Shown here piece by piece: positions 2,730 through 53,123 of a DNA stretch of 64,000 nucleotides. The number at the start of each line of letters is the position of its first letter. Position 1 is the stretch's first letter. The notes under the pieces were generated by a model that did not search any database, was not told the origin of the DNA, and saw nothing but the letters and a program-made list of their open reading frames with translations. This DNA comes from Microcaldota archaeon (GTDB taxonomy: Archaea > Micrarchaeota > Micrarchaeia > Micrarchaeales > Micrarchaeaceae), in contig JAJZBL010000003.1 of the NCBI GenBank assembly GCA_021798935.1, positions 62,001 through 126,000 of the forward strand. The letters are read 5' to 3'. Position numbers and translations under genes: made by a program.

Positions 2730-4319
2730 ATGCAATATATCGTAGTTACGGGTGGAGTGGTTTCAGGTTTAGGGAAAGGCACAATAGTATCCAGCTTATC
2801 TTACCTGCTAAAAAATAGCGGGTTGAATGTGACAGATATAAAGATAGATCCTTATTTAAACTTCGATGCTGGCACTATGAGCCCGTACCAGCATGGAGAG
2901 GTATTTGTGCTAGATGATGGAGGCGAAGTAGATCTTGACTTAGGCAATTACGAAAGGTTTTTGGATACTAATTTGACATTCAAAAATAGCATAACAACAG
3001 GAAAGGTATACAAAAGAGTTATAGAGAAGGAAAGGAAAGGGGATTACCTTGGAAGCACCGTACAGATAATACCCCATATTACCGATGAAATAAAGCATGA
3101 AATAGAGGATGCGGCAGATGGGTACGATATAGCACTTATAGAAGTTGGTGGTACGGTTGGCGATATAGAATCGATGCCATTCCTGGAGGCTTTAAGGCAG
3201 ATGAGATCAATGCCTAAAAATCAGATGATATTTGGGCATGTAACGCTTGTGCCTGAAATAGGAGATGAACAGAAAACCAAGCCCACACAGCATGGAATAC
3301 GAGATTTGAGGTCTATAGGCATACAGCCGGATATGCTTTTTTGCAGATCGACAAACCCTTTAAGCAAATCAGCAAAGGAGAAAATTTCACTATTCACTGA
3401 TGTAGCAGAATCTGAGATAATAAGCGCTTACGATGTGATGAATGCGTATTTTGTGCCTAAATTGCTCATGGATCAAGGAATTTTAGACTTTATAAAGGGT
3501 AGATTCTCCATAAAAGGCCATGAATTGAAGTACACGCTCGATGAATTTACTAAGAATCTAGAAAATCCAAAGGAAAGGGTCAAGATAGCAATTGTGGGAA
3601 AATATATTGAGATGAAAGATGCTTATATAAGCCATAGGGAGGCTTTCTCTCATGTAACGGGCAATACTGGAATAGGTGTTGACATAAAATGGGTTGATTC
3701 AGATAAATTAAAAAATGGAACTGATTCTATTAAGGACGTTGATGGCATTCTTGTGCCTGGCGGATTTGGCTATAGGGGTGTTGAAGGGATGATAATTGCT
3801 GAGAGATATGCAAGGGAAAATAATGTTCCTTATCTTGGCATATGCTTAGGTTTCCAGGTTGCAGTTATAGAGATATCAAGAAACCTCCTGCATCTTGAAG
3901 GCGCAAACAGTACGGAATTTGACAAAAATACCAAATACCCTGTGATAGACCTTCTTCCTGAACAGGAAGGAATCAAAGATATGGGAGGCACTATGAGATT
4001 AGGATCTAAGGAGATAGATATCAAAGAGGGCACGTTCGCTCATGGATTATATGGAGCGGATAAAATTTACGAAAGGCATAGGCACAGGTATGAAGTAAAC
4101 CCTAAATACATAAGCAAGCTAAATGAAGCAGGTGTCGTATTTTCAGGAACAGATAAGGAAGGAGTAAGGATGGAGATAATGGAATTTCTAGGAAGAAAGG
4201 ATTACATTGCTACACAGTTTCATGCAGAGTTAAAATCAAGGCCTATGAATCCTTCCAAAGTTCATATTAATTTAGTAAAATCCGCACTAGAGTACCAAAA
4301 AGCGAAGCTTAAGCTTTGA
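2730..4319 (+). CDS. pyrG: CTP synthase
   Basis: This cytosolic enzyme makes CTP from UTP, ATP and glutamine. The 529 residues match the family length. The N-terminal synthase domain has the P-loop region VVSGLGKGT and the [19 protein letters not shown] signature. The C-terminal class I glutaminase domain has LGICLGFQ with the nucleophile at about Cys372 and a His-x-Glu pair in QFHAEL near the end. The ATG at 2730 follows a good ribosome binding site (TTGGTGGA). It has its own promoter region and no operon partner on this strand. Confidence 0.98.
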
Positions 4320-4426: not shown

Positions 4427-4511
4427 TGGACTCTGCGGGATTTTCATTATTATTTTGAACCCGCAACCTCCTGCATGCCATGCAGGCGCGCTACCGTTGT
4501 GCCAAGAGCCC
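4427..4511 (-). tRNA. tRNA-Ala (anticodon GGC) with a T-loop intron
   Basis: The 85-nt gene has acceptor strands GGGCTCT and AGAGTCC, including the G3-U70 pair that is the alanine identity element, and discriminator A73. The anticodon arm is CCTGC-ATGGCAT-GCAGG, giving anticodon GGC. CCA is not encoded. The T-stem GCGGG/CCCGC encloses 20 nt instead of 7. The 13 extra bases fit an intron between positions 59 and 60 (see the intron entry). The D-stem has one A-C mismatch at 12-23. It starts 16 nt after the Sm-like gene on the same strand, so the two may be transcribed together. Confidence 0.92.
4441..4453 (-). other. 13-nt intron in the tRNA-Ala T-loop
   Basis: Read on the minus strand, TTCA of the T-loop pairs with TGAA inside the insertion, forming a 4-bp helix flanked by 3-nt bulges AAA and AAT. 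Cutting each bulge after its second base, as archaeal splicing endonuclease does, removes exactly 13 nt (ATAATAATGAAAA) and leaves the normal loop TTCAAAT. Confidence 0.82.
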
Positions 4512-53036: not shown

Positions 53037-53123
53037 TGCCGCTGGCAGGATTTGAACCTGCGACGTTCCGGTATCTGAATTGAATTACTTCAGCCGGACG
53101 CTCTCCCACTGAGCTACAGCAGC
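53037..53123 (-). tRNA. tRNA-Phe (anticodon GAA) with canonical intron
   Basis: The 87-nt gene has acceptor strands GCTGCTG and CAGCGGC, D-arm GCTC-AGTGGGA-GAGC, anticodon stem TCCGG/CCGGA, T-arm GCAGG-TTCAAAT-CCTGC and discriminator A73; no CCA is encoded. Between the anticodon stem strands are 22 nt, which is the 7-nt loop (CTGAAGA, anticodon GAA) plus a 15-nt intron at the canonical 37/38 position. It is convergent with the cytochrome b gene. A TATA-like GTATATATAC lies about 70 nt upstream. Confidence 0.95.
53073..53087 (-). other. 15-nt intron of tRNA-Phe
   Basis: On the minus strand, loop bases CTGA pair with TCAG in the intron. The flanking bulges are AGT and ATA; cutting each after its second base removes TAATTCAATTCAGAT and restores the 7-nt loop. 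This is the archaeal bulge-helix-bulge arrangement at position 37/38. Confidence 0.85.

Follow-up and report, generated by a model that had tools for sequence, protein, structure and literature searches.

The 85-nt gene at 4427..4511 on the minus strand of the window, i.e., the whole 64,000-nt stretch of DNA analysed here, specifies a pre-tRNA-Ala(GGC) whose T-loop is almost certainly interrupted by a 13-nt archaeal intron of the bulge-helix-bulge (BHB) class, located at position 59/60 and predicted to be spliced by an epsilon2 endonuclease and a ligase. The gene is identified from its sequence, its cloverleaf, the ARAGORN call on the spliced form and its orthologues; the coordinates given in the initial annotation stand, and the strand had to be corrected to minus. 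On that strand the cloverleaf reads GGGCTCT-TG-GCAC-AACGGTA-GCGC-G-CCTGC-ATGGCAT-GCAGG-AGGTT-GCGGG-[TTCA AAA TAATAA TGAA AAT]-CCCGC-AGAGTCC-A, which amounts to 72 nt minus the insert, with the CCA end not encoded. The anticodon GGC lies at 4477..4479 (minus), as read from the sequence and as called by ARAGORN on the spliced form, and the acceptor stem GGGCTCT/AGAGTCC contains G3:U70, the alanine identity pair. Upstream lies a gene for what we take to be a small LSm-like protein (4776-4528, minus), and a presumably CTP-synthase-like gene (2730-4319, plus) is convergent with the tRNA gene, both being named from reading their translations; a T-rich stretch follows the tRNA gene on its 3' side.

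The T-loop comprises 20 nt instead of the usual 7, and taking out 13 nt leaves TTCAAAT with no base left over, exactly as the initial annotation had stated. The raw gene is not called by ARAGORN and is called tRNA-Ala(ggc) once the 13 nt (4453-4441) are removed in silico, while the Rfam tRNA model gives the raw gene 17.2 bits, under the gathering score of 29, and skips the T-arm. The intron, A-TAATAA-TGAA-AA (4441..4453, minus), is missing in 18 of 55 orthologues, and its predicted cut sites rest on column variation in the other 37. The central 4-bp helix that in the BHB class joins the 5' exon to the 3' portion of the intron is present: the exon strand TTCA (T-loop bases 54-57; 4456..4459, minus) pairs with the intron strand TGAA (4443..4446, minus), a pairing proposed earlier and borne out by the RNAfold helix and by covariation among orthologues and isoacceptors. 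The T-stem serves as the outer helix of the motif, with its 5' strand GCGGG at 4460..4464 and its 3' strand CCCGC at 4435..4439, both on the minus strand and both evident from sequence and fold. RNAfold of the T-arm yields, at -8.0 kcal/mol, the TTCA/TGAA helix capped by an apical loop of 9 nt and flanked by a 3' bulge of 3 nt, and 3 of 200 shuffled T-arm sequences folded equally well. Of the relaxed BHB motif that had been proposed, the helix and the 3' bulge AA/T (4440..4442, minus) fold as such, the latter as a true bulge, whereas the 5' bulge AA/A (4453..4455, minus) lies inside the 9-nt apical loop, with which it is fused. The inner helix of a strict hBHBh' motif is absent beyond the 5' bulge, the apical part TAATAA (4447..4452, minus) being unpaired in the fold, and such inner helices are seen in longer orthologous introns.

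In the 60 related genomes searched, 55 tRNA-Ala(GGC) orthologues could be parsed, all from one archaeal order. The 18 that are insert-free have a 7-nt loop, TTCAAAT or TTCGAAT, which is exactly the predicted spliced loop, so that the comparison with relatives suggested by the initial annotation came out in its favour. The other 37 carry an insert at the same site, 13-44 nt long and freely variable in its interior, in which a stretch of four bases close to the 3' end is complementary to loop bases 54-57, giving four pairs in 32 genes and three in five. Of the 28 orthologues with A57, 27 have U opposite it, and of the nine with G57, five have C and one has U in that place; for a wider set of 134 introns the association between base 57 and its partner has a Fisher p = 1e-6, uncorrected for relatedness. 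The Lys-CUU genes, that of the same genome included, have C55 opposite G, and one Lys-CUU has UCCG/CGGA. ARAGORN called all 37 insert-bearing Ala genes after in-silico splicing and one of them before. Removal of the insert thus restores a canonical tRNA, as expected of the BHB class, both by ARAGORN and by the 18 orthologues that have the spliced loop in their DNA; the insert is confirmed, and its excision is what we infer. The wider set comes from a 59/60 pattern that gave 134 matches in 52 of the 60 relatives versus a handful for a reversed control. The C55 pattern was mostly noise, with a reversed control about equal, and we retained only those of its matches that in-silico splicing turned into a tRNA.

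At a single locus the helix match is only suggestive as evidence against chance: among random 13-nt inserts that leave TTCAAAT, 0.4-0.5% form four Watson-Crick pairs in one of the allowed registers, a share that rises to 3-5% if G-U is permitted. Chance is excluded because 36 further orthologous insertions keep the helix and because other tRNAs of the same genome show T-loop introns.

The placement of the cuts is indicated by the bulge columns of the 37 insert-bearing orthologues, which agree with the site given in the initial annotation. On the 5' side A58 and A59, the first two bulge bases, are invariant and the next base is variable, and in the 3' bulge bases 1-2 vary, the second being A, T, C or G, with U60 invariant. 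Since A59 is invariant and its counterpart, base 2 of the 3' bulge, is not, A59 would belong to the 5' exon, and the column variation therefore fits cuts that follow the second base of each bulge, at 59/60. Both bulges start with AA, so that cuts one base earlier, at 58/59, would give TTCAAAT too and the sequence of the locus itself is ambiguous; moreover, 58/59 is the site used by a 12-nt T-loop intron in tRNA-Leu(CAA) of the same genome (G000:C6:61510-61606; L039, L266), a gene that lies just beyond the window. The helix of that tRNA is displaced by one pair, with GTTC/GAAT in this genome and GTTC/GAAC in many relatives (L267-L277). The register of the central helix in tRNA-Ala(GGC) fits 59/60, and together with the contrasting behaviour of the two bulge columns this makes a real intron with 58/59 cuts very improbable.

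A decayed pseudogene or an assembly error, with an intact Ala(GGC) gene in the missing part of the genome, is given some room by an assembly that is about 96% complete in 10 contigs. Nevertheless, the two close relatives both carry an insert at this place, of 15 and 16 nt, whose helix is intact, and the genome of one of them is a single contig; the rest of the tRNA is conserved, G3:U70 included, and the insert fits the motif rather than being random, so that we regard this explanation as highly unlikely. The second intact tRNA-Ala(GGC) that the initial annotation had named as evidence against an intron was not found in this assembly. Apart from the GGC gene, the only Ala genes detected were those for UGC and CGC; a GGC anticodon reads GCU and GCC, and the GGC gene must therefore serve both codons. 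That the insert is retained and the tRNA functions with an enlarged T-loop is scarcely credible, since 18 orthologues have none, the length varies between 13 and 44 nt with a free interior and yet the exon helix and the restored loop are kept, and a 20-nt T-loop would disrupt the D-loop/T-loop contact on which the tRNA elbow depends.

The intron at 59/60 is very likely removed by the broad-specificity splicing enzyme of the genome. A single 396-aa protein aligns over the full length with the ARMAN-2 epsilon2 endonuclease (E = 3.5e-158; 4fz2/9w2k), and the catalytic residues Y236, H251 and K282 and the specificity-loop residues Y160 and K161, whose roles in the epsilon2 endonuclease have been described (PMC12397907, PMC6379350), are conserved in the alignment with the ARMAN-2 enzyme. 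The three-unit epsilon2 enzyme with its catalytic triad and the ARMAN-specific loop lysine is thus encoded in the genome at full length, which supports the earlier suggestion of a broad-specificity endonuclease. Its named relatives are nearly all labelled Micrarchaeota, with a few MAGs labelled Marsarchaeota, the best showing 71% identity, and the source of the DNA is therefore very likely a micrarchaeote. The ARMAN-2 epsilon2 enzyme cleaves BHB and bulge-helix-loop pre-tRNAs in vitro, the bulge-helix-loop substrate used being a pre-tRNA-Cys (PMC12397907). In the precursor of tRNA-Ala(GGC), a helix between exon bases U54-A57 and the UGAA close to the intron's 3' end would stack on the T-stem, giving a bulge-helix-loop that retains an intact 3' bulge and has its 5' bulge fused into the 9-nt apical loop. 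The epsilon2 endonuclease of the same genome would then cut each bulge behind its second base, after which a tRNA ligase would join A59 to U60 to give the T-loop UUCAAAU; the transcription, cleavage and ligation of this precursor are what we infer.

T-loop introns occur in 6 of the approximately 44 tRNA genes of the genome, among them 59/60 introns in Arg-UCU (29 nt), Arg-UCG (31 nt), Arg-CCU (15 nt) and Lys-CUU (14 nt). The custom cloverleaf parser misassigns the anticodons of several genes with anticodon-loop introns, and only its results for Ala, the T-loop and the D-arm were used. The D-arm is apparently interrupted by about 21-26 nt in Leu-UAA (G000:C7:19880, L045) and Gln-CUG (G000:C6:140558, L046), and tRNA-Phe(GAA), at window positions 53037-53123 on the minus strand, has a 15-nt insert at or near the canonical position 37/38. 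An identical 87-nt tRNA gene is found at the ends of contigs C5 (G000:C5:172445-172531) and C9 (G000:C9:29877-29963), and these contigs therefore probably join there.

The initial annotation had ranked the intron among the shortest of its kind, which overstates its shortness. T-loop introns of 12-16 nt are recurrent among the relatives, the 134 pattern matches include one of 12 nt and seven of 13 nt, and the published minimum is 11 nt (PMC4090602). The Ala(GGC) gene of relative G032 has its own 13-nt T-loop intron, with intron letters that include CATACG and a predicted spliced junction of GGGTTCGAA joined to TCCCGC. Archaeal tRNA introns span 11-129 nt with isodecoder medians mostly of 12-25 nt (PMC4090602), and 13 nt is close to the low end and not exceptional. 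Length goes along with the form of the motif: an inner helix of at least three pairs is present in 16 of 18 introns of 17-22 nt versus 2 of 26 introns of at most 16 nt, and shuffled intron interiors form about 0.6 inner-helix pairs on average. Because the inner helix is mostly present in the former and rare in the latter, the window intron is read as the reduced bulge-helix-loop form and its longer orthologues as the predicted full bulge-helix-bulge.

Near-identical T-loop introns within one genome were observed in G001, G018, G020, G026, G032 and others (L196-L205). Several such pairs sit in different tRNAs, i.e., Ala and Arg-CCU in G001, where they are identical, Ala and Arg in G018, Ala and Cys in G032, and Arg-CCU and Arg-UCU in G026. 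Eight high-similarity intron pairs were observed within genomes versus 0.37 expected when genome labels are shuffled and 0.24 when letters are, counts uncorrected for relatedness. This suggests that introns may have been copied between tRNA genes, although the inserts are short and AT-rich and some of the genes close paralogues. We tentatively hypothesize, as one possible history, that the 59/60 introns are a family copied among tRNA genes within Micrarchaeota genomes and shrinking from full BHB to bulge-helix-loop under epsilon2, so that a spread like that in Thermoproteales would have been reached independently in a lineage without the known pseudouridine-55 enzymes.

In the same genome, 14 of about 44 tRNAs are without U55 (10 with C55 and 4 with G55; L001-L047). 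Among the 295 phylum genomes sampled, a TruB/Cbf5 domain was detected in 122. All of these lie outside the order, where about 134 sister genomes of the class were covered; inside the order, by our count, none of the 161 sampled genomes gave a match. Strong Pus10 matches inside the order were obtained in only four genomes. As controls, TruB/Cbf5 was found in all 14 named genomes and Pus10 in all four archaeal ones. The order thus seems, from these domain searches, to have lost the known pseudouridine-55 synthases Cbf5/TruB and nearly all Pus10. We considered whether T-loop introns are tied to the loss of Pus10 and dropped the idea, as some sister families that keep Pus10 also match the intron pattern.

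Position 59/60, bulge-helix-loop motifs, epsilon2 cleavage and the 11-nt minimum are all published already, and by position, motif, enzyme and length the tRNA-Ala(GGC) intron therefore joins a known class. The 59/60 position is a listed non-canonical site of archaeal tRNA introns (PMC4090602), T-loop introns with strict and relaxed motifs have been reviewed (PMC6379350), and ARMAN non-canonical introns and their cleavage are cited in PMC4033280. The non-canonical introns of Crenarchaeota and Nanoarchaeota (PMC4090602) share the 59/60 position, the BHB logic and the length range of 11-129 nt, whereas the present one belongs to tRNA-Ala(GGC) of a Micrarchaeota-like genome and has lost the inner helix. 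The ARMAN-1 and ARMAN-2 introns (PMC4033280, PMC12397907) share the lineage and the epsilon2 type, and their bulge-helix-loop substrates were cut in vitro. The intron transposition of Thermoproteales (Fujishima 2010, as cited in PMC4033280) likewise involves similar introns in different tRNAs of one genome; here, by contrast, the lineage is Micrarchaeota and a single T-loop site is concerned. A partial literature search found no paper on a 59/60 intron family across Micrarchaeota.

ARAGORN misses tRNA-Ala(GGC), and likewise almost all T-loop-intron genes tested, so that the tRNA complement of this genome seems to have a gap, which the gene described here fills. Introns of about 12 to 44 nt at one site provide a natural series for mapping the minimal substrate of the epsilon2 endonuclease. 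Introns at 59/60 are found again and again in the order, and different tRNAs sometimes share near-identical ones; the spread of introns thus becomes testable outside Thermoproteales. Pseudouridine at position 55 is the most universally conserved tRNA modification (PMC7912444), and the loss seen in this order, if confirmed, would be a loss of the known enzymes for it.
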